A DNA stretch of 64,000 nt from NCBI GenBank assembly GCA_947462875.1, contig CANHQJ010000005.1, positions 1 to 64,000 of the forward strand. The letters are read 5' to 3'. Origin of the DNA: Verrucomicrobiia bacterium. GTDB taxonomy: Bacteria > Verrucomicrobiota > Verrucomicrobiia > Verrucomicrobiales > Akkermansiaceae. The stretch's first letter is position 1. The number at the start of each line of letters is the position of its first letter. The notes beneath the pieces were generated by a model. The model was not told where the DNA came from and ran no database searches. It saw nothing but the letters and a program-made list of their open reading frames with translations. The position numbers and the translations under genes were made by a program. Positions 1 through 59,144 of this stretch are shown in pieces.

Positions 1-965
1 ACCAGCAATTGATCATGGTTCGATTCGCCGGTGACGGTGAACACCAGCGATGATCCGGTGTTTGCGGTAAGGTCGCCCACGATTTCCAGGCTGCGGTCGC
101 TCGTCCCGCCCTGCCCCGCACGCAGGATCCCGTCCAGCGTCACGCTGCCGTTGATCACGCCATCGCCACCAAGGGTAGCACCCGCATCCACGATCACCTC
201 GCTATCCGCGTGAATCGATCCATTCACATTCAATTGACCGGCCGAAACCGTGGTCGTCCCCGTATAGGAGTTGATACCGTTGAGGTTGGTCGTTCCGGCA
301 CCGGTTTTCACCACGTTGGTCGGAGTGCCGGAGTCGCTTATCGCAGACCCGACGGATGTATTGCCGCTTCCGTTATTCAAGGACATCTCGGATCCGTTCA
401 GCTTCACGTTCCCGACCGCGATCGATGCTCCCGTGGTGTCATAGGCCCAATCCTTGATCAACGCGCCGCCGGTATTGTTGGTGAACACCACGCGCATCCA
501 GCCGTAATTGCTGCCATTGAGGCGGAAACCGAGGTAGCCCTCGCTGCCAGCCACAAACTGTCCCGCTCCCGCTCCCATGTGCGTCTCCGAGGCACCGAAG
601 CCGGGAACCTGAGGCGTGCCGGCGTTATTATCGTGATCCCAGGTGAAGGTGGAAAAAGTGCTGCCACTGCCCACGAGACTTCCCTCCGACAGATTGGTCA
701 CCGCCGATGTTTCACTGGTGGTGCTGCGCACCGGTTGAAAGGTGGGGCTGTTCCAAAGCACCGAGCCGCCGAAAAACGGATTGATGTCCCAGCCCGATTG
801 CGGGGCGTTGATGTCCGTGTTCCAGTTACCCGTGTCCACATCGAGATAAACCCCGGCGAAGGTCGCGGGGATCGCGATATCCTTGAGGTTGCTGTAGATC
901 ACATCCGCTGCTGCGGGCAGGGTCAGCAGCAGGGAAACAGCAACAGGAAGAGATCGGCTTTTCAT
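1..965 (-). CDS. PATR-repeat secreted protein, 3' end cut off by the window edge
   Basis: The frame starts with ATG at 965 and stays open to the left edge (321 codons seen), so the C-terminus is missing. It begins with a short Sec-type signal peptide, MKSRSLPVAVSLLLTLPAAA, unlike the long signal peptides of the four upstream giants. Residues of about 21-185 form a non-repetitive domain with the stretches VYLDVDTG, GWDINPFFGG, GYLGFRLNG, YGWMRVVFTNN and KDWAYDTTGASI. I associate this with N-terminal domains of Verrucomicrobia/Planctomycetes secreted proteins, from memory only. At about residues 220-250 a PATR unit follows (KTGAGTTNLNGINSYTGTTT), then the usual AGATLGGDGVINGSV continuation. It lies 65 bp downstream of the last giant gene with no terminator between them, so co-transcription is likely. 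No Shine-Dalgarno sequence precedes the ATG. The exact role is unknown; surface or extracellular location is inferred. Confidence 0.8.
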   Translation of the reverse strand, partial: MKSRSLPVAVSLLLTLPAAADVIYSNLKDIAIPATFAGVYLDVDTGNWNTDINAPQSGWDINPFFGGSVLWNSPTFQPVRSTTSETSAVTNLSEGSLVGSGSTFSTFTWDHDNNAGTPQVPGFGASETHMGAGAGQFVAGSEGYLGFRLNGSNYGWMRVVFTNNTGGALIKDWAYDTTGASIAVGNVKLNGSEMSLNNGSGNTSVGSAISDSGTPTNVVKTGAGTTNLNGINSYTGTTTVSAGQLNVNGSIHADSEVIVDAGATLGGDGVINGSVTLDGILRAGQGGTSDRSLEIVGDLTANTGSSLVFTVTGESNHDQLL

Positions 966-1030
966 GACTTCGGCGGGGCGTACGAGTGGTGGTAAAATCC
1001 AGTGAAGACGTCAATTGGTTAGAGTATCGC

Positions 1031-4000
1031 TCACTCCGCGATTTGCACGCGGAAGAACGTCGGTTTTTTCGGTCCGGCGGGAGTGGGGACGAAGTTCGGG
1101 AACGGCACTCTTACAGCATCAATCGTGCCATCTGTGGCAATGACCGTCGGCGCCACGACGCCATCCGTCCACTGATCCAGTCCGGCACTGAACTGCACCG
1201 TGTAGGTCAAACCGGCAGCCACATAATCGGCGCGGCGACCAAACACTGCGTAATAGACTCCGCTTTCCTCCAGCAGCACCGGTTGACCGGTAGCGGTCAC
1301 CGCTCCACCCGAATAGGTGATCGAGCCCGAGGAAGCCACTTTGGGATTCGTGCCGAAAGCATACTCCATCAGGTTGCTGAAGGAATCGCCATCGTCATCC
1401 GCGCCTTTGGCTCCCGTGACGTTGTTCACATCCGCCCACTCCTGATAGAGCGAGATCAAGCGCAGACTGTTGTCGTTGTATTTCTTCAGAAGATACCCGG
1501 GAATGGCGGCATGCAACGTTGGCGTGCCGGTGATGCCGGTGGAGGAAGTGACGAGAGTATGGCTGTCCAAGGTCGGTGTGCCCGTCACCTTGATCGTGCC
1601 TGCCGTGACGTCGAAGCTGCTCGATGATGTCGTGGGCGAACCAATGGCAAAACTCAGCGAGGCTCCCGTGCTGACGGTGACCGGCGATGCCTGACTGCCG
1701 CCGACCAGCGCAAGAGTGCCCGCATTGACCGTAGTGGTTCCGGTGTAGGTATTGGCGCCCGTGAGGGTCAGGGTGTTCGTGCTGGAGGCACCGAGAACAA
1801 AGTCACCCGTGCCCGCGATCACACCGGCATAGGTGCCGGCTGTCGTCTGGTTCACCGTGAACACTCGACCTGCCTGCGTGTTGATCGTGGCCGTGTTGAT
1901 GCCACTGGTGGGAACAGCAATGGTGCCGCTCAAGCTTCCCGTCGTGGTGTTCACGGCGGTAGCCAGATTGAGCACGGAATTGGTGCCAGCACCCGTGTTG
2001 GTGTTGCTGACAACGAGAGCGCCAGTGACAGCGCCGAGCGTGCCGCCCGTGCCCACCGTGAGCGTCCCTTGGTTCACCGTAGTGCCGCCACCGTAGGTAT
2101 TGGCTCCCGTCAGATTCAATGTGCCGGCACCCGCCTTGACCAAACCTTGCGAACCTGCAATCACGCCACTGATGCTCAGATCGATGGCCGCGGCACCATC
2201 CGCGACCGTGGTGGTGAGAGGACCGGCACTGCTGTTGGAAATTCTCAGCGAAATCGTGGCTTGGGTAGCCGCGGCATTGGTCGTGATGCTCGGGTTGAGG
2301 GAGCTGAAGACTTTCATGTCAAGACCATCCACAGGAGTGATTCCCGAGCGCGGAACAATGCTGCCACCGGTCATCGTAATCTGGCTGATGTGATTGAACT
2401 CCGCTCCTTCGAAGCTACCGCCATTCACAAACAGCGGAGAGAGGGTTCCCGTGCCTTGGCCGAGCGCGTTATGCGACAGAGCCCGTACGGTGGCGCCCGA
2501 TGCGATGGTCAAGGTGCCGGATCCCGCCACGCTGCCCCCGGTGTTGTTACCCTGCAGGGTCACCAGGCCATTGCTGACCGTGAGGCCACCGCTGAAGGTA
2601 TTTCCCGCGAAGCTGCCGTTGCCAAGTGCCAAAGTTCCCGCACCGGTTTTTTCCAAGGTGCTGGCGACCTGAACATTCCCCGCAGCATTCCAGTTATTCT
2701 GCAGGACCGAATTGATCGTCAAATCCGTGGCCGTGCTCAATGTCGCATCGGCCACATTGACCACCAAGGTGCCAGGAGTGCCGGACGGCCCGATGTTGAT
2801 CGCGTTGAAGGTGCCGGTGCCCACATTGATGGTCGAGGCGGCAGTGCCTCCCACCGTCAAGGTGCCCTTGATCGCAAGGGCCGGATAACTCGCACTGGCC
2901 CCCCCGTTCAATGTAACCGTGCCGCCATTGAGAGTCGGATTGATGATGGTGTTGAAATTGCCATTGGTCGCGAGCGTGCCTTGGTTCAGCACAATCGGCG
3001 ATGAAGTTGTTGCTTGATGATTGCCCCAAACGTCATTGCGATCAAAGCGCAGCGTCGCGCCGGTGCTAACTGTGATGATCGAGCTGACCGAAGTCGTTCC
3101 ACCAGTACCGATGGCCAGAACACCGCCTAACACATTCGTCGCGCCAATGTAGGCGTTTGCCCCTTGCAGCGACATTGTACCGACACCAATCTTGTTGATA
3201 CCACCATTGGCTCCGCCCGCATTCCCTGTCGTTCCCAAAATCATACTGACAGCTAAGTCCGTAGCCGCGGAGGAAGTAACATCCGCTACATTGAAATTCT
3301 GGACGCCTTGCAAGCGAATGCCGCCACTACCATTCATCGTCGAAGCACCTGTGCCCGTCACGTTGACAGTAGCAGGACCAGACACTACGTTTGCCAGCAA
3401 GGTATCCCAACCAGACAGAGCCCGGTTCGATGTCCAGGTCGCGCCATTACTCAAAGTCACATTGCCAAAACGGAAATCCGCGAGCGTATTGAACAACAAC
3501 GTGCCACCATCCACCGAGATCACCCGGCTGTCGGCCAAGGCCGTGCCATGGCCGGCCACGAAGATATTGGTGGCTCCGAACTCGAGTGTCGATCCAGTGC
3601 CGGCAGAGAACGCCGACGAGTTCACCATCGTGGCGGAAACCGTCAACCTACCGCTGCCGGTAACTGCGGTGGTGCCGGAGTGTTGACTGGCCGCTGACAG
3701 GGTAAGATTCCCGGCACCGCCCTTGACCAGGTTCCCCGTTGTCGCAGCAATGCCACCCGAGATCGTGAGTGTCTGTGCCGAGGTCGAAACATCCACGGTC
3801 CCGGTGTTTCCAGCCACAATCGTGAAGGCGCGGTTGCTGGAAGCGGTGTTGCCCGTGTAGCGAAGGGTGCCGTTACTCAGGATGAGGTTCGCCGCGTCCG
3901 CGGCAGCCGCGCCGATGCCACTGTTTGCAGCGCCGTTTGCCAGAACCGAAACCGCAAGGATCCCGCCATCGATGGTGGTCACGCCTGTGTAGGTATTGGT

Positions 4001-7000
4001 TCCCGTGAGGGTCAACAAGCCCGTGCCGCTCTTGGTGAAGGAGCTGGCAGCAGTGCCATTGGTGATGGTGGAATTGATGGTGCTGCCGCCGCTGCTGTTT
4101 TCAATCACTTGCAGCGCGGTGGTCACGGCTCTCAGGTTTCCATCCGCCACTGCGGTGCCAATGGTCAGACCGCCTGCTCCCGCCGAAACGAGGATGGAAT
4201 TGACTGCCAGTGTGGTGTTCGTTAGATCCGGATCAATGGTCGCCGCGCTGGTGCCGCCGGACGTGCTTTGGTTGAGGGTATTGATGGTGGTGGTCGCAGC
4301 GGCCAGCGTGATGCTGGCAGGCGCAACCCCTGTGCCCTCGATGATACGGACGTTGTTGGCCGCCGTATTGGCAATCACTTTGGAGCCGGATTCCAGTCGT
4401 GTCACATCGGTGTAAGCCGAATACGCAACGACGCTGTTGTTGGCTCCAGTGGTGGTGGCGAAGTCCGTGCCATTGACCGTGGCCCAGGTGCCGATGATGC
4501 CAGCACTCAGGGTCGGGTTGGTGGTGAAGCGGATTTCGTTTTTCGTATCCACAGTGGTGCCCAGACCAGTGCCTGTGAAGTTCAGGGTGCCCGCTGTGCG
4601 TGCGAGTGAGGCAAACGTGAGAAGCGAAGTTTGCCCGGTCGCAGCCTGTCCTGTGGCGATGGTGTTGGTGCCACCACCAACGCTAAGCGCGCCGGTCGTT
4701 TCTGAGTAGTTTGCCGCGCCTTGGTTATTGGTGAAATTCAGCGTGCCGCCATTCATCGCAAGCGTATTAGCAATGCGGTTGGTGTTATTCGCTGCGGAGG
4801 TATTGGCCAGAGTCAAGGCACCGCCATTGCTCAGCGTGATGCCGGTGGCACTGGCAATCGCGCCGTTAGCTCCGCTGAGATTGAGCGTGCCACCAGTGAC
4901 GGCAACTGTAGTGCTGATCGTATTGGCACCCTGCAGGGTGAGCGTTCCCGATCCCGATTTGGTCAGGCTGAAAGCACCACCCATCACTCCGGATACCAGC
5001 ATATTCGTGCTGCCAGCAGCGGGATTGACCACATTGAACACGGCATTTCCCGTCAAGGTAGCCGAATTGAAATTCACCTGCGTTGTACCACTGGTGACCC
5101 TCGAACCGCCTGTCACATTCAACGTATGCGCACCGATACTAAGAACATTTAACTGGTTCGTGATACCAGCGCCTGCCGTATTGCGATCACTGATGATTGT
5201 CGCACCTGAACCAGTCAAGGTTACATTGGCAGTGTTGGCTAGGGCCGTATCCGTTCCAAGACGAAGCGTGGTGGCAGCCGCCATCGAAAGGTCAATTCTA
5301 TTAACGCTAGCAGCGTTACCGTCACCCATGGCATTCTGCGACCGCAGATCCACGGTGCCGCCGCTGATCGTTACAAGGCCTGTATTTCCTGCGGGGTCCC
5401 ACCAGTTATTATTACCGCTGAGGATGAGCGAGCCCGCGCCGGTCTTGGTGACACGTGCAACAGATGCTGTTCCCGAGAGGTTGCCCGAGAGAATGACATC
5501 CACATCTGCTCCCACGGCAAAGGTGGTGGTAGAGCTGGCGGTTGTTCCGAGTTGCGGGAATCCAGTAAAGTCCAGGGTGGAGACTCCACTGACCACATTG
5601 GCACCCTTGTTCACCGTGAGGGTGAAACCATTTCCGAAAGTGACATTTCCGAGCGAGGTGGAAATGCCAGCACCAGACGTTAACCGATCAAGAACGATTG
5701 TGCTGCTGGCGGAAACCGTCACGTTTTTCGAACTCAATGCCGCATCAGAAGCGAGTTGCAAGGTGCCGCTGTTGAGATTCAACGCTTGCGCCGCCGCTCC
5801 AAGAGAGGCGGTGTTCGTGGTGCGGATCGTGCCTCCGCTGATGGTGGTGCCCCCCGTGTAGGTATTGGCATTCGAGAGGGTCAGTAATCCGGCGGATGCC
5901 TTGGTCAGACTGCCTCCTCCGCTCACAACACCGTTGAACGCGGCATCCTTGGCCGCATAGCTCACATTGACGGTATTAGCACCCGTGAGAGCGATGTTGC
6001 CCGAGTAGGTCTGAACAGCATCTTCCGAGGTGAGTGTGGCGGAATTGAGATTGATCGGGTTGACAAATGACATCGCATTCGACGTGCTCGCCGCAAACAT
6101 GCGCAAGGTCGTTCCTGCATTCATCGTGATCGTCCCCGAGCCAAACGGGAACCTGGCCCCTGCCGTGTTACCCAGGTTGGCGGTCAGAGTGCCGGCATCG
6201 ACAATCGTACCGCCCGTGTAGGAATTCGTTCCGAAAAATGTCATCGTTCCCGGATCAAACTTCCGCACCAGTGTCGCGCCCGTTCCATCGGCAATGATGG
6301 AGTTGACTGTAATCCCCGCAGCGGCGAAATCCCGGAATTCCAGAGAGGTGCCAGCGGCTCTGAGCGTGCCGTTGTTAAGCGAGGTGCCGATGGTCAGCGC
6401 CCCCGCACCCGTGCCCACCGTGACGCTGTTCAAGGCGAGTGTTTGCAGTGCCAAATCAATCGAAGCGGCACTGGTTCCGCCTTCCGAGCTCTGCGTGAGT
6501 GTATTTACCGTCGTCGTCGCCGCGCCGAGCGTGAAGTTCCCTGCGGATCCCGTTCCCTCGATGAAGCGCACATGGCTGCTTGCGCCGTCAGCGATGACTT
6601 TGGAACCTGACGAAAGTCGGGTCAAGTCCGTGGTCGTCGCAGCAACGATCAGCCCTGTGCCGTCATTGATCGCTGGAAGATTCCCGCCAATCGTGGCCCA
6701 GGAACCGAGAACACCCTGCGCGTTGTTCGCATTGGTCGTTCTGGCAATACCGCTTTGCGCCAGATTCAATCGAGAAGTAGAGTTGATGCTAATGGCGCCC
6801 AAGTTGAGAACCGCAGTGCCCGTGGTGCGGGTGATCGTGCTGTTTGTCGCGGCAGTGAGTGTCGTGGAAGCCACGCTGTCTTCAAAACTGCCACCTGTCA
6901 GTTCAATGGCACCACCGGAAAGCGTCAGAACGCCCGAGCCGATCTTGCGGTTGTTGTTTGTGCCATAGTCCAGGCGTAAGATCGTTCCCGCATTGACAGT

Positions 7001-10000
7001 GAAGGCACTGGTGCTGGTGGTATTCGTGCCGCTCAATGCGAGCGTGCCGCCACTGACTGTGGTACTGCCGCTATGCAAATTGTTGCCCGCCAAAACAGTC
7101 AGATTCGATCCGCTTTTCAACACCGGTTGCCCACCTGCCAAATTACCCGCAAAGATCTGGGTAGCGCTTGAAGGGTTGAAGGTAATCGTGCCACCCGAAC
7201 CGGTAGCAGTGCCGGTGTAGGCTGAAGTATCGCCCTGGAACTCCACACCGATCGCTCCGCCCAATGTCAGAGGACCGCTACCGCTGATGGCACCGGTGAG
7301 GCGGAAGTTAAGACCGAAGCCACCACTACTGCTATTGATGATCGAGCCGCCATTCACCGCATCCACGGTGACGTTGTTCTTGAGAATCGCGCCCGCGCCA
7401 CCGCCGTTGTTACCGATGATTTGACCGCGGCTGAGAATACCACCGTTCAATGCAATCGTATGCACCGTGCCAGCGCCCGTATTGTTGGTGTCACGAGTCT
7501 CAAGGCGACCTCCCGTGTTGATGGTGATCGTGCCTGTGGCGGTAACGAATGATCCCGCAGTCGTGGAATACAAGGTCGCTCCGTTGTTGATATCAATATC
7601 ACCACTGGAAATACTTTGAATCCCCGCAAAAAATGCTCCCGAAGAGAGGGTCAGTTTATTTCCACCCAAATTGAGCGTTCCGAAGGACACCAACTTGGCG
7701 GTATCGGCCCCTCCGGTCACCGCGCTGGATGCCGAAGCATTGCCCGTGAGTGTCACGGTGCCGATCGAGGCGCCCGTCGTGGTGCTGCTGTTGGTGATCA
7801 CTCCCAGAGATCCGATTCCTGTTCCGATGATGGAAACAGGACGTCCACTGGCAAATCCTGCTAGATCGAGCATAGCGCCCGTAGCCACGGTGGCCAGTGG
7901 AGTATTGCCCAGACCAGCGTTATTCCCTAGCTTGAGGGTGCCGGCTGTCACGGTAGTCGCACCCGTGAAGGTATTCGCGCCGGAAAGTGTGAGTGTGCCG
8001 CTACCATTGACCGTAAGAGCCCCCGTACCACTGATGATGCCCGAGAAGGTCTGATTCGCGCTGGAAGCAAATGTCAATGTACCAGCATTAGCAATAGCTC
8101 CGGCATACGTTCCCGCACCGAGTGTTCCGGCACCGCCGAGTGTCAGTGTACCTTCTGCCACAGTGGTGGTTCCCGTGAACGTATTGGCACCAGTGAGGGT
8201 GACCGCACCGCCGCTGGACAGCGAAACCACACCAGCCGCCGCATTGTTGCTGATCACCGAATTCACGGTCACAAGCGAGGAACTCTCGTTATTGATCACA
8301 AGGCTGGAAGCGGCCGCTGTCGTGCCCGCGGTAAGGAATCCTTGTCCGGGAGTCGCGCCCATCGTTAGAGCCTGTGCTCCGGTGCTGGAAGCCAGGGCCC
8401 CGGTAGCGCCCGCGCCATTGCCCAGCGTGAGTGTATTGGTTCCCAGATCGATGGTGGTCGCATAGGTGGGAGCCGTCATCAGCAAGGAATTAGCCGTCGT
8501 GCTGGCGGAGAAGGTTGCGGCCGTTCCGGTGGCGGCACCGTCGATGATGCGCAAATCAGTCGTGGGATTCGTCACATCGTTGCCATCGGTCGTCAGGTCG
8601 GTGTAGGTGCCCACCCACTCCACGACGTGATTTCCTCCCGCCGATGAAGTCGAGGCCCAGCTCGTGCCATTCCACAAATGCCCTCCCAGGCGAGTGGTAC
8701 CATCGTTCCCCGTGGTGGTGGTGGTGGTGAGGAAATTCCGACTGCCCAGAGCAATATCCGTCGCATCAGATCCGGCAAAATTGATCGTCCCGCTGGTCGT
8801 ATTGATCGCACCTACGGAAACATCAATGCTGGTCGCGCCATTCCCTGTGAGCAAGATGTTGCCCGAGCCGCTGATGCCGTTGAACGTTTGTGCATTGGCC
8901 TCACCGCTGCCGCCCTTGACCTCAAGGGTGCCGCCACCCAGAATGAGAGCCGATGCCGGGGAAATGATGTTGCTGGTGCCGCCCGTCGCAAAATCGAGTT
9001 GAAGAGTGCCACCGTTCACCGTGGTGCTGCCGGTGTAGAGGTTGGTACCGGTGAGGATTTGCGTTCCCGTGCCCACTTTCTCCAACTGGAGACCGCCACC
9101 GCCGACTCCTGCAGCCAAGGTGGCGTTGGTCACGTTGCCGCGGATCACACCTGCGAAGGTGCCAGTGCCATCATTGGTGCCGAGCACCAGTTTTTCGATG
9201 TTTGCTGAAGAACCACTTTGTCCTGTAGCATTGCCAAAATTGTTCTGCACGATACCCGTGCCGGTCAGCACATCCAAAAATACGGGATCCGCAAAAATGT
9301 CGAAAATCGCCCCGCTGCTGACGTCGATGTCCGCCTTGTTGCCGGACCAGTTCGTGACATTATTATTGTTCTGAAGCGTGCCTTCCTGAATATTGATTTG
9401 TCCCGTGGCGGTGATCGCTTGCGAGCCATTGAATTGCAGCAATGCAGTACCCGTTTTATTGTAGGTGCCGGCACCGGAGAGTGCCACACCAGTGCCAAAG
9501 TTGACCGCAGACGTGACGTTGAATTCCACTGTGGCGGCGTTATTGATCGGGCTGGCAAAGGCGGTCGTATTCACCAAACGCAGAATACCTGCGTTGACGA
9601 CTGTCGGATCGGTGTAGGAGATGACGCTACCTTGGAGCGCTTGTGTTCCCGTGCCCGTTTTGACCACTCCCAGTGTATCAAAACCCACCGTGCCGCCGTC
9701 AACATTGCGCAAGTGACCATTAAAGTAGTAACTTCCCGAACCGGTGAGTGTCAAGGTGGCGGGTCCGAAAGAATTGGCGGTGGTATTGCCATTCTGACGA
9801 TTTTGGATCACGCCACCGCCCTGTGCGGCAACAGAGCCGGTTTCAATGCCCGCAAGCGATTGGCTTTTACCCAAGAAATCGAGTCGGTTCCAGACGGCGC
9901 TGGCTGTAGGAAAGCTAGCAACGACACCCGCGGCAAACTGATTGGCCTGCAGCATTCGCGCATTCGTCAAGTCAGGGCCATTCATGATGAAGCTGCCCTG

Positions 10001-13732: not shown

Positions 13733-13895
13733 AGCTGTTGGAACTTGTTAGGGGATGGAACTTGGGGCGGGCAGCAGCAAACATTTGAATTCTGTCGCTG
13801 CTATGAAAAGCAGTACATTCTAGTCAGACGACCAACGCAAGAAAAAAAACCAAAATCCGCATGCATTCGTCTCATTCATCCGATTGATCCGTCAC
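13733..13895 (-). promoter_or_regulatory. leader and presumed promoter region of the 4233-aa giant
   Basis: These 163 bp separate the upstream terminator from the giant's ATG and contain no gene. The 36 nt before the ATG are C/A-rich with only three G in the mRNA sense and no Shine-Dalgarno sequence. The opposite strand correspondingly shows GGGG (13751-13754), GGGG (13764-13767) and GGG (13769-13771) runs. A small hairpin CTGCT/AGCAG lies at 13798-13813. No convincing -35/-10 pair was found, although TTGCGT near 13836 is a possible -35. Confidence 0.4.
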
Positions 13896-13927
13896 AAAAA
13901 ACGGCCGCCATCCGGGGATGGCGGCCG
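13896..13927 (-). terminator. Rho-independent terminator after the 4124-aa giant
   Basis: A perfect 12-bp inverted repeat (CGGCCGCCATCC at 13902-13913 and its complement at 13916-13927) is followed on the minus strand by six T residues (13901-13896). It sits 20 bp past the stop codon of the 13948-26322 gene. The stem is identical to that at 26451-26476. Confidence 0.92.
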
Positions 13928-13947
13928 CTTTGTCGATTCGCCTTTTC

Positions 13948-26322: not shown

Positions 26323-26393
26323 ATTTGATGGGGTAGATTGGGTTTATGGGCTTTGGCGTATCAGGTGCGTCGCAACGTAGAGATACGTGACAA

Positions 26394-26423
26394 AACATAT
26401 GCACATGATAATCAAAAGTGCAA
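26394..26423 (-). promoter_or_regulatory. candidate promoter of the 4124-aa giant
   Basis: On the minus strand TTGCAC (26423-26418) and TATGTT (26399-26394) are separated by 18 bp, a fair match to a housekeeping sigma promoter. It lies between the upstream terminator and the ATG. Together with the mRNA leader it leaves about 65-70 nt before the ATG, the last 28 of which (26350-26323) contain no G and no Shine-Dalgarno sequence. Confidence 0.45.
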
Positions 26424-26443
26424 GGAAAATGTTACTTCACCAC

Positions 26444-26476
26444 AAATAAACGGCCGCCATCCGGGGATGGCGGCCG
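26444..26476 (-). terminator. Rho-independent terminator after the 3861-aa giant
   Basis: The same 12-bp stem as the one at 13902-13927 (arms 26451-26462 and 26465-26476) is followed on the minus strand by TTTATTT. It lies 31 bp after the stop codon of the 26508-38093 gene. Its identity with the neighbouring terminator suggests the whole gene-plus-terminator unit was duplicated. Confidence 0.88.
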
Positions 26477-26507
26477 CTGTGATCGGGCGGATGTTTCCGC
26501 TTGCCCG

Positions 26508-38093: not shown

Positions 38094-38131
38094 AAATTTA
38101 AGGGTTTGAGGTAGGGTTGATGGGTTGGAAA
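38094..38131 (-). promoter_or_regulatory. G-free mRNA leader of the 3861-aa giant
   Basis: The 38 nt directly before the ATG contain no G in the mRNA sense and therefore no Shine-Dalgarno sequence. The opposite strand carries three GGG runs (38102-38104, 38114-38116, 38122-38124) and two GG runs, a weak quadruplex-like pattern. I saw no clear promoter between here and the terminator at 38276. Confidence 0.5.
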
Positions 38132-38240
38132 CTTGCCCGCTCAAAAAAGAGACAAATTTCAGAGACAGAAGCACTTTCGCCTAATGATCTCTCTTTTCAA
38201 GAAAAAACCTCACTTCGTGAAAAAAATGATACAGTTCGCA

Positions 38241-38276
38241 AAACAAAAGCCCTCCGGCGTAGAGGCGCGGAGGGCT
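38241..38276 (-). terminator. Rho-independent terminator after the 3462-aa giant
   Basis: Arms AGCCCTCCG (38248-38256) and CGGAGGGCT (38268-38276) form a 9-bp GC-rich stem, followed on the minus strand by TTTTGTTT. It lies about 70 bp beyond the stop of the 38349-48737 gene. Its sequence differs from the two identical terminators further left. Confidence 0.85.
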
Positions 38277-38348
38277 CTGTGAAGCGAGAACCTAGCGGCA
38301 GGATCCTGCGTCGCTAAAGCGATGAATAAAGCACTGCCGCCGTCATCA

Positions 38349-41300: not shown

Positions 41301-44300
41301 CACGCCCGGTTCAGAGCTGTCGCCGAGATTCACGTTGGCGTTACTGTTTCCGGTATTGACTGAGGTTTTGCTCGCCATGTTCAGGGTTGTGACGTCCAGT
41401 GTGCCTTGATCAAAGGTCAGGGTCGATGTCGAACCGCCTGTGTTTTGACTGCGAGTCGCCATCGTCAAGGTGCTGACATTGATGTTGGCCGTATGGCCAG
41501 CCAGATTGAGGGTGGAGTTCATGCCGACCGCCGTGCTGCCCGTGGAGTTGACCATGTTGAGGATGGTGCGTGTGCCGGTGCCACCGAAGCCGTTCAAAAC
41601 GAGCGTGCCGGTGGTGTCCGCACCGTCGAAGACGACCGTGCCGCTGGAGCGAATCCCGGCCCCGGCCGAGCCGATGTTGGTGGTGTTGGCGTTGATGACG
41701 TTGGAGCCATTGCCTAAGGTAAGGACATGATTCGATTGTCCACCGCTGCCGTCACCGATTCGGAAATTCCCAACGGTGATGGTGTTGGAAGAAGCGAGCC
41801 TCAAAGTCGAAGCAGCAGGGCTGTTCGAACCCGTATTGGAATCACCGAGTCGCAGCGTGCCGCCTGAACCATAGTTGAGCGTGAACGAGGCGAGACTGGA
41901 GAGGTTGACTGACGTGCTGCCAGACAACCCGCCTGCAGTCACTCCCCCGACTTGGAAGGTATTGGTGCCGCCCGTGCCCACTACCAGATTGCCGTTGCCT
42001 GTGGTGACCAACGAAGCGACCGCAGAAGCCAGATCCGCACCAACCGTCACATTGCCATTGAGGTTCAGGGTTTTGCCCGTGCTGATGTTGAGGGTATTGC
42101 TGCTGGCGGTGTTCGTCTGGACCAAGAAGGGGCCCGCGAATGTGGCCGAAGAATCGACTCCACTGACATCAAGGGTGCCGGTATTGGTGCTGCCGGAGGA
42201 GGCACCGAAGGTCAGGCCGCCGGTCAGGCTGGGGCTGGTGGTAGCCAAGGCCAGCGTGCCCAGATCGATGGTGGTGGTGCCGCTGTAGTTGCTGGCGGCT
42301 GTGGAGCTCAGACCGGAGAGGTTCCAGGTGCTGGTTCCGGTTTTCGACACTGAAAGTGTGTTGATGCCGTTCGAAATCACGCCGGAAATCTCATTGCCTG
42401 TGCTGGAACCTGACAGACCCAGTGTTTTGGCGTGGTTATTGTTGCCGATATTCACAGCACCGGGGATGAGCACGCTGGCAGTGGTGGGATTGAAGGTACA
42501 GGTACCGGCACCTCCCGCTGACAAATTCACGGCAGCAATCGAAACCGCGGCGTTGCCACTGGTGACATTTGCTCCAGCTTCGATCGTCCAGATGTTATTG
42601 CCAAAGATGGCGCTCCCCAGAACATGGGTGATACCCGCCCCGGCTGTGGCCCGGTCCGATACGATCGTTCCCGGGAAATTGGAACTGGAGCCCAGCGGGA
42701 AAGAAGACACGCTGGTATCCGTCGCAAGGCGCAACGTGCCCGACGCCGCGGCAGTCGAGATCCCCACAGAGCTTGAGCTGGAAAGAGCGTTGACATGTGC
42801 GGCCACCAAGGTGCCGCCACCAATGTTGGTAGCTCCGGTGAAGGTGTTGGAACCCGATAGAACCACAGTCCCGGTTGTCGATTTGGTCAACGCACCAGTG
42901 CCACCCAGGTTTGCGGAAACGATGCCGCTTTCGAGGGCATAGGAAGTGCCGGTGAGCGTGCCGCTGCCGGTGATGGAGGCACCGTTCCGGAGGGAAACGG
43001 CCCCGACGGTGTCGCTGTTCGATCCGAGGCTGAGGATGGCGGAAGCGCCGTCCACCGTCACCGCGCCTGTGTCAGGAAGGGTGTTGGTGGCGTCACCAAG
43101 AACCAAGGTGCCACCACTGATGGTGGTGCCGCCGGTGTAGGAGTTGCCGGCGGTGGCCAGGGTGAAGGTGCCGGCGTTGGTCGGCGCGAGGGTGAGCGAG
43201 CCGCTGCCGCTGATCGAGCCGGCTCCGGAAACCGTATAGTTCCGGCCGGTGGTGTTCATTGTCACGCCGAGCGGGGATAACGTGCTGGCCAGCGTGACTG
43301 TGGGATTCCCGCTCGCGCCCGCTGCATCGCCGAAGATGACCGAGTCAAGGGTGTCGAAGAAGGTGGTGGCGACCAGGTTGGAATCGACCCAGTTGGTCGT
43401 GGAGGTGTCCCAGTTGCCATCCCCGGTATTCCAGGAGATGGGGGCGTTGGCATTGTTGGTGACCGTCACGAACAGGGTATTCGAGGAAACGCTGAAGGTT
43501 CCCGTGATCCGATGGGTTCGGAGGTCGAAGGCGGAGCCGTCCACCGGGCCGCTGCCGGTCCAGGTGGCCAAGGGGTAGGTTTGACCGACCGCAATGGATG
43601 CCATGTTGGTGGCGGTCAGTTTGACGCCGGGCGTGGTGCCATTGACAAAGTTGGCGACCTTGATCGGAGCGACGGTAAGGCTGGGTGTGGTGCTGCCGAA
43701 GTCCACGAGGGCCACGGCATTGTTCTGAAGGGTCAGGTCGCCGGTGTTGACCCACTGGCCATCGGTCGCGGCGACGAGAGCGCCGGCCTCGGCTCCGGTG
43801 GCGACGGTAATATTGCTGGTGGCGGAGCCTGCCGATGACAGACGAAGGGTTCCCGCGTTCACAGAAGTCGCACCGGTGTAGGTATTGGCTCCGGAGAGGG
43901 TCAGGGTGCCGAGGCCGCTCTTGGTGAGGGCGCCGCCACCGTCATTGACCAAAGCGCTGCCGAAGGAGACCGAGAAGCCATTGGTGTTGATGTTAGCGCC
44001 ACCGCTTTTGACGTTCATCGTCAGGTTGGAGACGGTGGGAAGGTTCGCAGCGGCCACGAACTGGCCGCCATTGAAATTGAAGATCCGGTTGGTGCCGCTG
44101 ATCGAGGCGATCTGGTTCAACGTGAGCGTGCCGCCGTCCAGGTTGACGGTGCCGGTGTTGCCGGCGAACGTGCCTAGGTTGTATTCGAGCGTATTGATCG
44201 TCGCGGAACCCGCTGTCAATGTGAGGGTGGCATTGCCAGCGACGGTTCCCACGTTGCCGAGCATCAGCTTTCCGTTGTTGGCCGTGTTGACATAGCTGCC

Positions 44301-47300
44301 GCCGTTGATGGTGAGGGTGCCGTTGGGAGTGCCCGCCGCCGCGGTATTGGCGATGGTGTCGTAGTTGGTGGCTCCACCACCAAGGGTGGTCAGTGTGCCG
44401 CCGGTGAGGGTCAGTGCTCCGTTTCCGCCGTTGGCAATCAACAGGCCTCGCTGGCTTGCGCCGGCACCACCGGACTGGATGCTTCCGCCAGTGATCTGGT
44501 TGCCAGTGCCGAGGATGCTCAGACGGGTGATGTTAAGCGTGCCGGAGGAGCTGATGGTGTTGCTTCCCGCCGTGATCAGGCCGGTGGCGGGCGTGGTCGT
44601 GACGTTACCGGTAGTGCCCGTGCCCGTGACGGTCTGGCTCGCAGCAAGGGTCAGGCCACCCGTCGAGTTCCAAGTCGCCCCATCACCGATGGAGATCGTG
44701 GGCGAGGTGGTAATGCGGTTTAACGACATGCTCAACGTGCCGGCGCTGATGGTGGTATTGCCGGTGTAGGTGTTGGTGCCGCCCAGGGTCCAGGTCGCGG
44801 CTCCCGTCTTCACCAGGGAAACATTCGTGCCACCGATGACGAGGTTGATCGTGCCGGTCGAACTCGCATCACCCGTCAAGGTAAGCGTCTGTCCACTGCC
44901 TGTGAAAGGAACCGAGGTGCCGGGAGACGTGCTCCACGTGTAGGTCGAGTTGTTGACGACATCCAGGGTGGCACCGTTGGCGCCGATGTTGACGACACGT
45001 CCGCGAGCACTGGTCTCATTGTTGAAGCGCAGGGTTCCGCCATCGACCACCACCTGCCCGCCACTGTTGTTGAGATTTCCAAGGGACGGAGAACCGGCCC
45101 CCACAGCAGCCGACTGACCGAAGTTTTTTACCACCAAGACCCCGCCGCTGCCCACGGTGACGACCGATGAAACCGGAGTGGCTACGGAGTATAGCTGCGC
45201 GCCATCCGCCGAAAGGTCGAGCACACCGCCGTTGATCGTCGTGTTCCCTGTGTAACTGTTGGCATTTGTAACGGTGAGAGTACCGGTGCCGCTTTTCGTC
45301 AGGTTACCGGAAGAGATGCCGAAGGCACCGCTGAGCACGTAGTCCTTTGTGCTGTTGTTGAAGGTGGTGTTTGAGGGCGCGACGTTCGCGGCATCGATGT
45401 CAACCGTGACCGGACCGGTCGGGGTGGCGCTGTCGTTGAAGAGCACATTGTCGGTCGCCTGGAACAGCGTGTAGCTGTCGTCCGATGACAGCTTCCAGTT
45501 GTTGGCGGAGGCGGTGTTCCATTTCCCATCGCCATCACCGGCCCAGTAAGGAATGTCATCCGCACCGATGGTGAGCGTGATGGCGGTACCCGAATTGCCA
45601 AAGGTCTTGGCCTGGCGCGCGCTGGCTCCCGTCACGGTGCCAAGGACGAACTGGCCGAATCCACCCGCTCCGGTGATGCTTCCGCCGCCATAACTGATGA
45701 GATCGTAGGTGCCTGCGGGCCAACTGGCGGCGCTGGGATTGATGGTCACTTGTCCAGCTGAACCGTTGCCCACCAGGCTGGTGGCGGCGATGGCAGCCGA
45801 AGTGCTGCTGCTGAAGGTGTTGACCGTGGCCACGCCATTGAAGGTCAGGGCTCCGACATTCAGGGACGCACCTGGGACGCCGTCGTTGTTGGAAAGGACG
45901 CCGCCGGTAGCGTCACCGACCGTCACGGCGCCGACCGTGCCGCTTCCGGTGAGGGTGCCTTGGGTGAGGGTGATGCCGGGAGTGCCTGGCACACTGCTGG
46001 TTTGAAGGAGTTTCACGCCGCTGCCGTTGAGGGTGATTCCGCTGCTGGAGTTGATGTCACCGCTTCCGGTGAGCGCGAGCGTGCCGGCGGTGACGGACGT
46101 TGTGCCGGTGTAGCTGTTGTCACCGCTGAGCGTCAGCGTATTGGTGCCAACCTTGATGAGGCTGAGTGTGCCTCCGCCGGTGCCATCACCAAGAACGCCA
46201 GCGTAGCTGCTGGCGAGATTCAGCGAGTTGCCGACCGTGAGGGTGGCATTGGTGGAACTGGCGTTTTCAACGATCGGATTACCCGGCGTGGCATTGCTGT
46301 TGAGGCCGCTGATCACCACGTTGTTTCCGCCGAGGGCCAGGCTACCGCTCGTGGAAGCAGCGAAGGTCACGGCATTTTCCGAACCCGCGGTGCTGTTGAG
46401 CGCCCCCGAGTTGCCAAGCCGGACGGTGCCTGTGCTGATTTGAAGGCCACCTGTGAAGGTGTTGTTGCCGGAGAGGGTGAGCGTGCTGGCACCATCTGAC
46501 TTCGAGACAAAGCCGGTGGTCGTCGTGATCGCACCGGAAATGGTGACATTGCCAGCACCGCCAACAATGAGGTTTCGTGTGGCCCCGGTGATGGCGATGG
46601 CGTTGTTGAGAAGAAGGGTGCCGCTGTCGGAGTTGATGCGGGACTGGGCAGTCAACGTAACGGTGCCGCCGTAGGTGTTGTTGCCGGCGATGTTGCGGAT
46701 CGCACCCAGATTCGGCGTTGGGAGTGTGACGCCGCCGCCAGCGATGCTGATGGCTTCCGCGCCCACGGTCACGGCACCGCCGGTCCCGTCGATTTCCAAC
46801 CCGGATCCGCTAGCCACGGTGACGCCGCCGGCGGTGGTGCCCAGAGAGGTATTTCGGGTGATTCTCAGCACGCCAGCACTGATTGTTGTGGCGCCGGTGT
46901 AGGTGTTGGCGCCGGAGAGCACCCAGGTGCCCGCGCCGGACTTGGTTAGGGAAACCACACCGCTGGCACCGTTGTTGTTCTGAATGATGCCTGAGATCGT
47001 GTTGGCTCCGGTGTTGGTGCCGCCGAGGGTCAGCGTGCGGGCGCCGGTAGAGCTGGCGATGGCGGGATTGAAATTGGCGGCACTGAAGGTCAACGCCCCG
47101 GTGCCGATGTTGTTGATGGTGCCCCCGCCGGTGCCGGCGGCCACTGTGCCGCCAATCCGGATCGTCTTGTCCGTCGTCGCCGTGCCGCCGTTGTATTCAA
47201 GGACTCCGGAGTCGTTATTCTGTCCCAGCTGGACGACCACGTTTCTGCCGAGCGGCTGGTTGTTTGCGATCGCATCGATCGCGTTGACCGAGAGGGTTCC

Positions 47301-48737
47301 ATTCCGGATCAGAGTTTCTCCTGCATAGGAATTTGATCCAGACAAGATCCATCTCCCGGCGCCGGTTTTACCGATGCCGAGGTTGCCGCCCGAGCTCGGG
47401 TTACCGATGGTTCCGGCAAAGGTGTTGTTTCCGGTGTTGGTGCCGTCGAAGAAGAAGGTGCCGGCCGAGGCGATGGTTGTCATCCCCATGTTGGAGTTGA
47501 ACGTAACCGTATTTGCGGCGCTGTTGTTCACGAACCGGTTGATGGGGGTGACACCACCGCCGTCGAATATTCCACCGCCGAATCCCGTACCTATGTTGAT
47601 CTGACGGGTAGCGAAGGTAATATTGGAAGTGCCGGTATAGATGAAGGCATTCTGGTGCCCAGCCTTGTTCAAGGTGAAGTTACCGCCGTCGCCGATGCTG
47701 TTGAAGGTGAAACGGTCGTCCCCCGGCACGCTGCCCGAGGGCATGATGACATTGCCTGTGAAGGTGTTGTTCGTGGCCGTGAAGGCGATACCCGCAAGGA
47801 TGCCGTTCATATTGCCATTCACGATGGTGATGTTGCTACTCCCGGTCAGTTGTCCGCTGAAGGTCGACGTCGCCCCGGTGGCGCTTTGTGGGTTCTGCAG
47901 CGACAATGCCGCACCGACGTTGATGGGATTGGCAAAGGTGATGCTTACCCCGGCACCTTGGCTGCTATTGATCCTTGAGGAGCCAGTAACGGAAACACTG
48001 CCCGTTCCGAAACTGCTGGCGTTTGAGATGTTGATTGTGCCGCCCGAAAGGGTTGTTCCGCCCGAGTAGGTATTCGCTCCAGAAAGCCTCCAGGCTCCGG
48101 CTCCGCTCTTGGTCACCGCAAGGGTGCCGCCAGCCGATCCATCGCCAATGATGCCGCTGACGGTGTTGGCGCCGGTTCCTGTTCCACCTAGAGTGAGCGT
48201 GGTGGTATTACCGGTAATCGCGGATCCTGTCACTCCCCCGGAAACCGAAATCACTCCATTTGCTGCCGTAGTGGGTGCCGAAATAAAGGACGCCGTCGCA
48301 GCAGAGTCGCCGGAGATTTGAATCGGGGTGCTGATGGTTTCCGTATGAGCCCCGACTGCTCCGGTGGTTTGGATCACGCCGCCGTTGTTGAGACGCAGTG
48401 TTCCCGTTTGCAAGGTGAACCCAAATGCAGAAGTATTGCTGAAGGTGATGCCGCCGATGAAACGAGTGGTATCGACGGTCACGGCCCGGCCGGCTGTTAG
48501 GGTAACACCGAAGGTTGCCACATCGGTGTTGTCAGCAGTCGTGGATCCGGGAATGCCATTGGTGGCATTCCAGCTACCGGCAGCGTTCCAGTTACCAGCG
48601 GCATCCGAAAGCCACGCACTGCTCGCTGCATGGGTCGGTTTCGTCGCCAAAGCAAAAGCCAGCGCTGCGGCAAGAATGCTTGGAATAAAACGACGACGGG
48701 ACGCGCGTACGCGCACTAGGGAATACTTGGGTTTCAT
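38349..48737 (-). CDS. giant PATR-repeat secreted protein, 3462 aa
   Basis: This 3462-residue PATR protein has about fourteen clear repeat units. The frame is open up to 49121, overlapping the divergent menD, but MKPKYSLVRVRASRRRFIP at 48737 matches the other giants, so the shorter start is chosen. The signal peptide ends THA|AS at residue 37. Cap modules YWAGDGDGKWN (near 45540) and WNTGDGNWDTSTTNW (near 43420) divide the protein. A W-A-F-V...ATTTVNTLLQSDSGGTSAA module at 40665-40140 is shared with the 4233-aa giant. The end region LALVGGSQASPVTVS...GITGTPVLH is also shared with that giant. The C-terminus has LNDDHDNDGVPNGVEYFLGG (about residue 3360) and ends KNFARLKVTGP. Only one cysteine was noticed in the mature part. 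No barrel is recognised. It is the promoter-proximal member of the array and is separated from menD by 274 bp. Confidence 0.9.
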   Translation of the reverse strand: MKPKYSLVRVRASRRRFIPSILAAALAFALATKPTHAASSAWLSDAAGNWNAAGSWNATNGIPGSTTADNTDVATFGVTLTAGRAVTVDTTRFIGGITFSNTSAFGFTLQTGTLRLNNGGVIQTTGAVGAHTETISTPIQISGDSAATASFISAPTTAANGVISVSGGVTGSAITGNTTTLTLGGTGTGANTVSGIIGDGSAGGTLAVTKSGAGAWRLSGANTYSGGTTLSGGTINISNASSFGTGSVSVTGSSRINSSQGAGVSITFANPINVGAALSLQNPQSATGATSTFSGQLTGSSNITIVNGNMNGILAGIAFTATNNTFTGNVIMPSGSVPGDDRFTFNSIGDGGNFTLNKAGHQNAFIYTGTSNITFATRQINIGTGFGGGIFDGGGVTPINRFVNNSAANTVTFNSNMGMTTIASAGTFFFDGTNTGNNTFAGTIGNPSSGGNLGIGKTGAGRWILSGSNSYAGETLIRNGTLSVNAIDAIANNQPLGRNVVVQLGQNNDSGVLEYNGGTATTDKTIRIGGTVAAGTGGGTINNIGTGALTFSAANFNPAIASSTGARTLTLGGTNTGANTISGIIQNNNGASGVVSLTKSGAGTWVLSGANTYTGATTISAGVLRITRNTSLGTTAGGVTVASGSGLEIDGTGGAVTVGAEAISIAGGGVTLPTPNLGAIRNIAGNNTYGGTVTLTAQSRINSDSGTLLLNNAIAITGATRNLIVGGAGNVTISGAITTTTGFVSKSDGASTLTLSGNNTFTGGLQISTGTVRLGNSGALNSTAGSENAVTFAASTSGSLALGGNNVVISGLNSNATPGNPIVENASSTNATLTVGNSLNLASSYAGVLGDGTGGGTLSLIKVGTNTLTLSGDNSYTGTTSVTAGTLALTGSGDINSSSGITLNGSGVKLLQTSSVPGTPGITLTQGTLTGSGTVGAVTVGDATGGVLSNNDGVPGASLNVGALTFNGVATVNTFSSSTSAAIAATSLVGNGSAGQVTINPSAASWPAGTYDLISYGGGSITGAGGFGQFVLGTVTGASARQAKTFGNSGTAITLTIGADDIPYWAGDGDGKWNTASANNWKLSSDDSYTLFQATDNVLFNDSATPTGPVTVDIDAANVAPSNTTFNNSTKDYVLSGAFGISSGNLTKSGTGTLTVTNANSYTGNTTINGGVLDLSADGAQLYSVATPVSSVVTVGSGGVLVVKNFGQSAAVGAGSPSLGNLNNSGGQVVVDGGTLRFNNETSARGRVVNIGANGATLDVVNNSTYTWSTSPGTSVPFTGSGQTLTLTGDASSTGTINLVIGGTNVSLVKTGAATWTLGGTNTYTGNTTISAGTLSMSLNRITTSPTISIGDGATWNSTGGLTLAASQTVTGTGTTGNVTTTPATGLITAGSNTISSSGTLNITRLSILGTGNQITGGSIQSGGAGASQRGLLIANGGNGALTLTGGTLTTLGGGATNYDTIANTAAAGTPNGTLTINGGSYVNTANNGKLMLGNVGTVAGNATLTLTAGSATINTLEYNLGTFAGNTGTVNLDGGTLTLNQIASISGTNRIFNFNGGQFVAAANLPTVSNLTMNVKSGGANINTNGFSVSFGSALVNDGGGALTKSGLGTLTLSGANTYTGATSVNAGTLRLSSAGSATSNITVATGAEAGALVAATDGQWVNTGDLTLQNNAVALVDFGSTTPSLTVAPIKVANFVNGTTPGVKLTATNMASIAVGQTYPLATWTGSGPVDGSAFDLRTHRITGTFSVSSNTLFVTVTNNANAPISWNTGDGNWDTSTTNWVDSNLVATTFFDTLDSVIFGDAAGASGNPTVTLASTLSPLGVTMNTTGRNYTVSGAGSISGSGSLTLAPTNAGTFTLATAGNSYTGGTTISGGTLVLGDATNTLPDTGAVTVDGASAILSLGSNSDTVGAVSLRNGASITGSGTLTGTSYALESGIVSANLGGTGALTKSTTGTVVLSGSNTFTGATNIGGGTLVAAHVNALSSSSSVGISTAAASGTLRLATDTSVSSFPLGSSSNFPGTIVSDRATAGAGITHVLGSAIFGNNIWTIEAGANVTSGNAAVSIAAVNLSAGGAGTCTFNPTTASVLIPGAVNIGNNNHAKTLGLSGSSTGNEISGVISNGINTLSVSKTGTSTWNLSGLSSTAASNYSGTTTIDLGTLALATTSPSLTGGLTFGASSGSTNTGTLDVSGVDSSATFAGPFLVQTNTASSNTLNISTGKTLNLNGNVTVGADLASAVASLVTTGNGNLVVGTGGTNTFQVGGVTAGGLSGSTSVNLSSLASFTLNYGSGGTLRLGDSNTGSNSPAASTLRLASSNTITVGNFRIGDGSGGQSNHVLTLGNGSNVINANTTNIGSAGAGIRSSGTVVFDGADTTGTLVLNGFGGTGTRTILNMVNSTGSTAVGMNSTLNLAGHTANINVSTLTMATRSQNTGGSTSTLTFDQGTLDVTTLNMASKTSVNTGNSNANVNLGDSSEPGVPTVTIGSIVMAVNTSTGGTSNANLNISGGNVGITSINMANAGSAVTASSNINLTGGTTTLAGNITRTGGAGTETSTITLNGGTLDMGGFAIGSSTAPITLAAQSGTLTGLGELNGGGTLSKTSSGNLVISGTNAFTGALAVAGGTLTYSGTTAKTVAGLTINPGNSVVTNTNAGASNILNVGAITRNAGGVVNFANATAANNVIQTSTANTNGILGAWAFVGSDWAMNDGSGNIVAYNAYTNVARLNPGTIADDATTNVRIIEGSGAPGNITLGAATTTVNTLLQSDSGGTSAATVDVSSATLRTSAIVMLSAAGTLTVGTAPNSGILTTATAAGDLALTNNSTGNAMTINSAIQDNTSASSLSKAGAGLVILNGTNTYTGPTTVNEGTLRLGGTSASISVNVTNGTLQAAGNLPAAAALTLGGTSTFDLFGASQTVASLANVAGNTITNSAAGTHASTATTSGSPALTDALTISTPVNSGLPALITDGPTRKTQVVMSNNNATFATTNPSNSYSGGLVLAHEPINGTRLTIGTINGTPYGSGPIIIGQANTDKAGMYFTTANQTLPNDIVVNTAVGTDRVGIRFDAIGMVLSGQITANLAPITFSTNTTGAATLTGKITGSQGLILSSATSGAAITITLNNTAANNDYAGDTVIGQSATAGRNRTLVLGAADQIPNGTGTGNVVINSNGTGVGTLNLAGFSETINGLSGNGIVDGASGTPTLTLGANNATSSFSGVITNTTGTLALVKAGTGTQTLSGANTYSGTTTVSQGTLALVGGSQASPVTVSAGASLSFAIGSPTTSTSSFDLTAGTIKITGTPSAASHTLITSSTGITGTPVLHSPVPGYVLKVVGNSLVLEQAGYGSWAAVNGAGANLNDDHDNDGVPNGVEYFLGGPTGNTTGFTALPGVTNTGGTLTVTWVMGSGYAGVYGTDFSVETSETLTGTWTTETAGVNVVVSGSNVTYTFPTPLGSKNFARLKVTGP
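38990..39840 (-). repeat. module shared by all four giants (copy 4)
   Basis: The conserved order TDKAGMYFTT, DRVGIRFDA, ITANLAPITF, LNNTAANNDYAGDTVIG, QIPNGTGTGNVVINSNGTG, TINGLSGNGIVDG and GTGTQTLSGANTYSG is present. The middle follows copy 2 (ATAGRNRTL) and the end follows copy 1 (GIVDGASGTPTLTLG), another mosaic pattern. Confidence 0.75.
40140..40665 (-). repeat. module shared with the 4233-aa giant (single copy here)
   Basis: It starts GILGAWAFVGSDWA, then has a TNVARL...RIIEGSG stretch and ATTTVNTLLQSDSGGTSAA. The 4233-aa giant has two diverged copies at 6715-6190 and 4505-3970, each with a W-A-T opening. I did not find this module in the two central giants. Confidence 0.65.
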
Positions 48738-48830: not shown

Positions 48831-49011
48831 ATAGACCCATGATTTCAAGTGAAAATGTTGCAATAGCGCCAAAAACGGCAAAAAACATCTCCCGCAGACG
48901 ACGTATTTTCTGACAGACCCTGCCGATGCCACTTCGCTTCGCGCGATACGCTCGCTCGATCGATTCGTCATGTTCCTTGCCAGATTCCGCAATCGCGTGT
49001 AGATCACGGCT

Positions 49012-59033: not shown

Positions 59034-59144
59034 GTGCGCCGGCACTCTGCCACAGCCATGGCCAATCATAAAGCCGCATTTTTGAGAAAATTGCACAACT
59101 TTTCCGGGATGCGGTGGTTGAATCACATAACCTTCCCACCGCTT

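Follow-up and report, generated by a model that had tools for sequence, protein, structure and literature searches.

Giant genes, PATR passengers, and very long proteins of PVC bacteria are already known, as the sections available of two reports describe (PMC11573180, PMC12057145); the long proteins in these sections are often extracellular, a likeness to those examined here. The PATR-containing type Va autotransporters, among them UpaB, antigen 43, pertactin, and ShdA, have in common with the giants reported below their PATR repeats, a modelled solenoid fold, a composition rich in Gly, Thr, Ala, Ser, and Asn, and a near absence of Cys. Substrates of the type IX secretion system (T9SS) of Bacteroidota likewise carry one C-terminal domain on dozens of secreted-looking proteins per genome; according to published abstracts, the T9SS is confined to Bacteroidetes. 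Periscope proteins, for which the accessible part of one report gives the PATR protein ShdA as an example, are also long, rod-like surface proteins (PMC9704523). In the available portion of a further study, Akkermansia muciniphila is described as having an autotransporter barrel in nine of its outer-membrane proteins and as encoding 23 predicted PEP-CTERM proteins (PMC4960237). In the open-access literature searched, no description was found of tandem PATR giants without a barrel, of their array, or of the C-terminal domain (CTD) described here.

Organization of the array

The window analyzed comprises the opening 64 kb of contig C5, taken from base 1, of a verrucomicrobial metagenome-assembled genome (MAG) of 3.95 Mb in 39 contigs that is 97.7% complete. 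This genome is denoted G000, and the relatives compared with it carry labels such as G001 to G004, G011, and G021. Four consecutive genes on the minus strand encode giant PATR proteins: g1 (1031..13732; 4,233 amino acids [aa], 19 PATR stretches), g2 (13948..26322; 4,124 aa, 11 PATR stretches, W-rich caps at residues 41, 1068, 1945, and 2934), g3 (26508..38093; 3,861 aa, 14 PATR stretches, W-rich caps at residues 42, 886, 1777, and 2752), and g4 (38349..48737; 3,462 aa, 13 PATR stretches). Both the lengths and the shared strand agree with the original prediction of four consecutive giants. Given the base composition of the window, the probability that frames of these lengths would be free of stops by chance is 10^-52 to 10^-64, and chance frames are therefore excluded. 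The start of g3 is an ATG within a longer GTG frame and that of g4 an ATG within a longer frame, both chosen because of the leader common to all four giants. Intergenic gaps measure 65 bp (gene 5/g1), 215 bp (g1/g2), 185 bp (g2/g3), and 255 bp (g3/g4). Beyond g4, which it adjoins, lies a divergent gene named menD by eye from its translation. Elsewhere in the window, an open reading frame (ORF) at 52131-53489 carries a PcfJ-like domain, and a frame at 58458-60053 with several EF-hand matches lies near a metF-like gene (by eye) on the opposite strand.

BLASTP comparisons gave 27 to 29% identity between g1 and the other three giants. Identity between g2 and g3 is 58% over 3,721 aligned residues. 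With a near-saturated dS of 3.1, g2 and g3 are, judged by their sequences, an old tandem pair. PATR frames are common in G000, at least 25 being found, of which at least 14 span 2,000 aa or more; these counts are lower bounds, as 150 of 229 candidates were scored. Pairs of neighboring PATR genes on one strand also occur on contigs C10 (L018, 2914-15480) and C21 (L021, 5361-12315) of the same genome.

The contig start cuts a further PATR gene, gene 5 (3..965, minus strand), of which 321 aa lie in the window. The start of contig C17 is identical to the first 149 bases of the window in reverse orientation, and the frame then runs to a stop; by addition (321 + 164 - 49), gene 5 totals about 436 aa, and it contains a single PATR repeat. 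A fifth PATR gene had been predicted to continue past the edge, and it does, but not as a giant of comparable kind: with the stop on contig C17 after about 436 aa, gene 5 was rejected as a fifth giant, and the array consists of four giants and one small gene. In G004, too, a giant is followed by a relative of gene 5 (71% identity across the portion available); this giant and g1 are 65% identical over their last 250 residues. Since the small gene recurs behind a giant in G004, giant and small gene form a repeated pair. The tail of gene 5 contains the motif IPEPSLTLLGSLGALLLLRRRR, PEP-CTERM-like by eye, and scored below the cut-offs of both PF07589 (14.3 bits; cut-off, 20.7) and TIGR02595 (12.2 bits; cut-off, 16). 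An exosortase is encoded in G000 (PF09721, 157.4 bits; C4:34939-35721) and may serve gene 5. The giants are hardly its clients, because they are without a PEP-CTERM tail; in none of the four was there a Pfam match to such a tail at an E value of ≤0.01, and their C termini end in strands (e.g., FARLKVTGP). Adjoining gene 5 in the same direction on contig C17 is an ORF of 1,180 aa (L083, 664-4203) with a pseudopilin-like N terminus, weakly similar to Verru_Chthon cassette protein A (19.4 bits; cut-off, 332) or GspK.

Transcription signals

Hairpins on the minus strand follow g2 (13902..13928; z = -3.70), g3 (26451..26477; z = -5.14), and g4 (38240..38280; z = -3.57), and for each, none of 200 shuffled sequences folded as well. 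Those after g3 and g4 were also listed as terminator-like sites by a consensus scan, which missed the one after g2, a 27-mer identical to that after g3. No hairpin was found between g1 and gene 5 (z = 1.3 for the whole gap). Terminators in three cases had been claimed beforehand, and the hairpins after g2, g3, and g4 confirm them. The identical 27-mer fits descent of g2 and g3 by tandem duplication.

A TTTT..CTTG element, a candidate promoter part, precedes each giant on the minus strand, at 48846..48855 (g4), 38198..38207 (g3), 26421..26429 (g2), and 13838..13849 (g1). It lies 107 to 125 nt before the ATG in all seven array genes of G000 and G004, in none of four upstream regions in G001, G002, and G003, and in 1 of 159 other upstream regions; as the motif was picked post hoc from these sequences, the counts measure consistency and are not an independent test. 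A σ70 consensus scan returned no sites upstream of any of g1 to g4, and an Rfam scan of the whole window at the gathering thresholds returned no matches. The terminators and the upstream element suggest that the giants can be regulated apart, and nothing more; they favor neither the composite coat nor the alternative fibers of the original prediction.

Leader of the giants

All four giants begin with a conserved leader (minus strand; g1, 13616..13732; g2, 26206..26322; g3, 37977..38093; g4, 48621..48737), that of g4 starting with MKPKYSLVRVRASRR. By eye, each has a basic n-region and a hydrophobic stretch. Across an alignment of eight leaders from five genomes, the others were 53 to 78% identical to the first. 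A profile of the leader matched four places in G000, the four giants only, despite the at least 25 PATR frames of that genome. Among 260 genomes of the family, eight had a leader match at an E value of ≤1e-5, namely, 5 of the 10 genomes of the genus (G000 included) and three others; up to 28 candidates were scored per genome, so that copy numbers are lower bounds. The leaders of the four paralogues have 10 to 17 of 21 to 28 same-residue codons in common and therefore are not homogenized. In G004, the second array gene has a leader (L027/L044, C6:1-161) identical to that of g3 at 105 of 105 nt. Between the menD genes of these two genomes, just 341 of 468 same-residue codons are conserved, and unrelated DNA precedes the ATG of the two leaders. 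The 105-nt identity may reflect recombination or an artifact of the contig end.

C-terminal domain and autotransporter barrels

The autotransporter barrel PF03797 was absent from the Pfam matches of all four giants, and the C terminus of g4 was modelled as an immunoglobulin (Ig)-like sandwich, not a barrel; the original prediction had not noticed this feature of the C termini. A search for DxDxDG-type patterns near protein ends revealed instead a C-terminal region common to 17 ORFs from the window and other loci of G000. Twelve of these went into a CTD profile, L016, L025, the second L018 ORF, g2, and g3 being left out; invariant positions of the profile are W, three D, N, E, L, W, and F. On the minus strand, the profile matched g1 at 1034..1459 (E value, 1.9e-34) and g4 at 38355..38732 (E value, 2.0e-37). 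The g2 (13966..14433; 43.5 bits) and g3 (26517..26996; 44.9 bits) domains belong to a subtype with longer loops and end 5 and 2 residues before the stop, respectively. Both were recovered from outside the training set, as were the ends of the giants on contigs C6 and C21 of G004 and C13 of G001. By eye, the giants carry three versions of the CTD, one in g2 and g3, one in g1, and one in g4. No transmembrane tail or LPXTG-like ending was visible by eye in their four C termini.

At an E value of ≤0.001, the CTD was found at 48 places in G000 and at 25 to 57 per genome across the 10 genomes of the genus, and at least 20 of the matches in G000 reached ≤1e-17. The match ended 0 to 4 residues before the stop in all 30 best-matching loci and in 27 of 32 further matches elsewhere, some of them profile members; of the other five, four ended 19 to 41 residues before the stop with the profile partly aligned, and one ran off its locus. 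Across the phylum, 87 of 240 genomes had a CTD at an E value of ≤1e-8, with up to 17 candidates scored per genome and copy numbers consequently lower bounds. Nine named records with a CTD all come from metagenome assemblies of Verrucomicrobiota, deposited under the names Akkermansia muciniphila, Akkermansiaceae, Verrucomicrobiaceae, Verrucomicrobia, or Prosthecobacter. Against curated models, the 12 profile members gave best E values of only 0.0025 (Pfam) and 0.02 (NCBIfam). The weak matches to Big_15 (2 of 12 members; E value, 0.0025), Nairovirus_MLD (1 of 12; 0.0042), and DUF3060 (1 of 12; 0.06) in Pfam and to Amuc_1099_fam (2 of 12; 0.02) in NCBIfam were not accepted as identifications. In the model of the g4 tail, two short helices surround the DxDxDG loop and are followed by the Ig-like sandwich at residues 403 to 482, which VIA-align 2 matched weakly to Ig-like and similar domains (Z, 5 to 6).

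PF03797 barrels were found in 22 of 38 genomes searched, G000 included. G000 itself had none at an E value of ≤0.001, a result from one 97.7%-complete MAG obtained with 2 of 14 control genomes positive. The counts for the 10 genomes of the genus were 0, 1, 2, 2, 0, 1, 0, 1, 1, and 1, so that 7 of the 9 other genomes carry one or two. In a sister genus, G011 has 15 barrels and no CTD at an E value of ≤1e-8 (all 13 of its candidates were scored), and genomes listed for that genus have 0 to 5 CTDs at that threshold, counts that are lower bounds. Mainly because of this reverse pattern in G011, a correlation over few genomes, the distribution suggests that CTD and barrel are alternatives. None of 92 PATR candidates in G011 reached an E value of ≤1e-12. 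One of the G011 autotransporter barrels (C1:62701-63459) lies in an open frame of 21,153 aa, and further barrel frames there measure 9,234, 8,252, 5,195, and 4,802 aa.

No two-partner secretion (TPS) domain was found in the four giants, in which PATR was the only Pfam match at an E value of ≤0.01. Three secretins are encoded in G000, two of them Amuc_1098-type pilus secretins and one whose best match is GspD (286.5 bits for a partial piece, below the curated cut-off of 351). T9SS C-terminal models were absent from the NCBIfam matches of the 12 CTD members at an E value of ≤0.1.

Repeats, modules, and fold of the passengers

PF12951 (PATR) matched all four giants with 174 to 232 bits (cut-off, 27), and at an E value of ≤0.01 no other Pfam family matched any of them. 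In NCBIfam, g1 and g4 matched TIGR02601 and, far below the cut-offs, the EprS and ShdA models, and nothing else. Gly, Thr, Ala, Ser, and Asn are the commonest residues in the giants, or nearly so, and Cys rounds to 0.0%. A core block of ∼340 residues occurs in all four at differing positions; its copies (minus strand) lie at 38748..39797 in g4 (residues 2981 to 3330, modelled as a beta-solenoid), 33222..34298 in g3 (48% identity to the g4 copy), 20983..22014 in g2 (55%), and 11111..12127 in g1 (55%).

W-rich caps recur near residues 42, 886 to 1090, 1777 to 1956, and 2752 to 2934 in g2, g3, and the giant on contig C21 of G004, and, without the first, in that on contig C13 of G001, which has one extra. 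The pattern is not universal, with one match in g1, three in g4, and none in the giant on contig C6 of G004 or the G002 fragment. Modules were cut at the caps in four giants, the first G001 cap and all last boundaries being placed by hand. Each of the eight modules of g2 and g3 was closest to the module of the same number, with identities of 57 to 68% for modules 2 and 3. Same-number identity was 36 to 53% for module 1 and 33 to 41% for module 4, and modules of different number were 23 to 30% identical. Giants of the g2 type thus look like four colinear modules of about 850 to 1,050 aa.

Two stretches were modelled. The last 482 residues of g4 (15-row alignment; pLDDT, 76.9; pTM, 0.72) consist only of strands over residues 1 to 358. 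Residues 13 to 360 matched VacA p55 (Z, 16.5), UpaB (14.3), and pertactin (12.7 to 13.9) in VIA-align 2, and phage tailspikes reached a Z of up to 14.2 (Sf6). The g4 solenoid match comes from VIA-align 2, which rescored the Foldseek list; Foldseek alone returned no matches at an E value of ≤0.001. The second model covers residues 1600 to 2199 of g3 (600 aa, two alignment rows; pLDDT, 62.4), and its residues 268 to 600 matched UpaB with a Z of 17.5; solenoids of the UpaB, HMW1, and EtpA type are among its fold matches. Most of residues 160 to 274 of this model, including a W-rich cap, have a pLDDT under 50. A beta-solenoid fold of the passengers is thus supported by the models for both stretches, 482 aa of g4 and 600 aa of g3. 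The beta-helix of the original prediction holds that far, and for the remainder of the giants a solenoid is predicted from sequence similarity only. Assuming 21 to 29 residues per rung and an unbroken solenoid, arithmetic gives rods of 54 to 93 nm, an upper bound, because the low-confidence W-rich module junctions may break the solenoid. The 75 to 100 nm estimated earlier lies at or above the top of this range.

Relatives and divergence along the giants

Stop-free frames with the leader of the giants were found in G004 (3,631 and 4,345 aa) and G021 (2,758 aa), and frames cut by contig ends in G001 (4,651 aa), G003 (1,839 and 2,410 aa), and G002 (742 aa). Decay of these genes in all relatives, which was to count against the original prediction, is contradicted by the stop-free leader-bearing frames in G004, G021, and others. 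Of the 10 genus genomes, 9 yielded menD. Upstream of that gene, a giant with the leader is present in G000, G002, G003, and G004; no such giant was found beside menD in the stretches fetched from G001, G005, G006, G008, and G009. The G001 giant is on a different contig with other neighbor genes. On contig C6 of G004 (L027, 11624-13944), giant and menD are separated by genes for a SulP permease and a carbonic anhydrase, which do not intervene in the window. G004 also has the start of a second leader-bearing gene behind the first, at the contig end. In the relatives, giants were found, but no four-gene array was seen, and the contigs of G001 to G004 end inside such genes.

Comparison of G000 with G004 at this common place revealed uneven divergence. 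The menD products are 94% identical (dS, 0.48), and g4 is 56% identical to the G004 giant over the aligned part. Over the last 252 residues, identity is 85% (dS, 0.75 to 0.88); over residues 200 to 877 it is 23 to 35% and over the first 199 it is 43%, with a dS from 1.3 to saturated. Because saturated synonymous change adjoins ordinary change, this sequence pattern points to recombinational replacement or an old paralogue in the N-terminal part of g4 more than to positive selection, and the low identity there could represent non-orthologous replacement. Within G000, blastn found no tract of ≥120 bp at ≥80% identity between any two array genes, and TRF found a single 24-nt tandem repeat (2.1 copies, 76% matches) over 48.8 kb. 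Recombining cassettes within the array are considered unlikely on these grounds, there being no long near-identical DNA, no homogenization of leaders, and one short tandem repeat.

Proposed export route and alternatives

The CTD in the place of the barrel on all four giants suggests another route to surface display of such rods. Our main reading, to which we give a probability of slightly under one half (about 0.48), is that the array encodes giant surface rods without a barrel, exported by Sec and then probably by a secretin and held or sorted by the CTD. The four giants would probably be transcribed one by one. Their Sec-type leader would take them over the inner membrane and presumably be cleaved, and a passenger of some 3,300 to 4,000 residues, built partly of modules of ∼900 residues, would fold outside into a rod. 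The outer membrane would be crossed without self-insertion, most likely via a secretin such as the GspD-like one, and the CTD would sort the giants to the surface or hold them there. The rods may be displayed with the N terminus outward, the free N-terminal part changing fast, and might act as adhesive or spacing fibers in attached or biofilm life. A wider proposal, which we hold tentatively and consider rather unlikely, is that an undescribed Verrucomicrobiota surface-export or sorting pathway, with ∼50 proteins per genome in the genus, uses the CTD as its signal, in place of the barrel on giant solenoids; related genera would use barrel or CTD, and the array would hold the most extreme clients. 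The CTD could also be an ordinary binding or capping domain.

Display at the surface has to be weighed against release of the giants as structural proteins of an extracellular matrix, with the CTD as a secretion or assembly signal. The position of the CTD at the protein end, the GspD-like secretin, and the four C termini without, by eye, a transmembrane tail or LPXTG-like ending agree with release; a domain used ∼50 times per genome is, however, at least as well explained by surface sorting, and release appears unlikely. A different role would be that of alternative fibers, one or a few giants being made at once and recombination generating variants, in the manner of antigenic or phase variation. 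Such fibers would be in keeping with the terminators after three genes, the conserved upstream element before each, the pairing of one leader with different passengers, the uneven divergence along g4, and the 105-nt leader identical between G000 and G004. That leader, however, lies at a contig end and is possibly an assembly artifact, the leaders of the paralogues are not homogenized (10 to 17 of 21 to 28 codons), and neither the single 24-nt TRF repeat in 48.8 kb nor the lack of any blastn tract of ≥120 bp at ≥80% between array genes favors recombination, which makes this role improbable.

Export might still be of type V, through an unrecognized barrel partner elsewhere in the genome (two-partner secretion or a BamA-like pore). 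Such export is compatible with the fold matches to solenoids like those of UpaB, HMW1, and EtpA and with PF03797 proteins in 7 of 9 other genomes of the genus, but the Pfam matches of the four giants include no TPS domain, the g4 C terminus is modelled as an Ig-like sandwich, and G000 has no PF03797; we regard this route as quite improbable. Least probable, and very much so, is a carbohydrate-active role, in which the beta-helices would bind or cleave polysaccharides and be rods by shape alone. The fold matches include polysaccharide-acting phage tailspikes (Sf6; Z, 14.2), but many non-enzymes have the same fold, and no catalytic Pfam family reached an E value of ≤0.01 in any giant.

If the main reading of barrel-less surface rods is true, many Verrucomicrobiota proteins annotated as autotransporter-like do not use an autotransporter pore, and an uncatalogued CTD marks the clients of another export route. 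The array also allows giants at a common place in two genomes to be compared along their length, where the C-terminal end is near-constant and the N-terminal part fast-changing.

Comparison with known systems

With the PEP-CTERM/exosortase system of Verrucomicrobiota, the locus shares an exosortase in its own genome and the PEP-CTERM-like tail of gene 5, and the giants differ in having no such tail. Unlike T9SS substrates, the 12 CTD members match no NCBIfam T9SS C-terminal model. Periscope proteins, in the accessible part of their description, need highly identical tandem repeats (PMC9704523), whereas the giants have one 24-nt repeat in 48.8 kb. Type Va autotransporters end in the PF03797 barrel, in place of which the giants carry the CTD; the giants also reach 4,233 aa and stand four in a row. 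The PVC giants counted in the available sections of the two reports exceed 5,000 aa, and some are catalytic or transmembrane (PMC12057145, PMC11573180), whereas the array described here consists of four tandem, barrel-less PATR paralogues of 3,462 to 4,233 aa.
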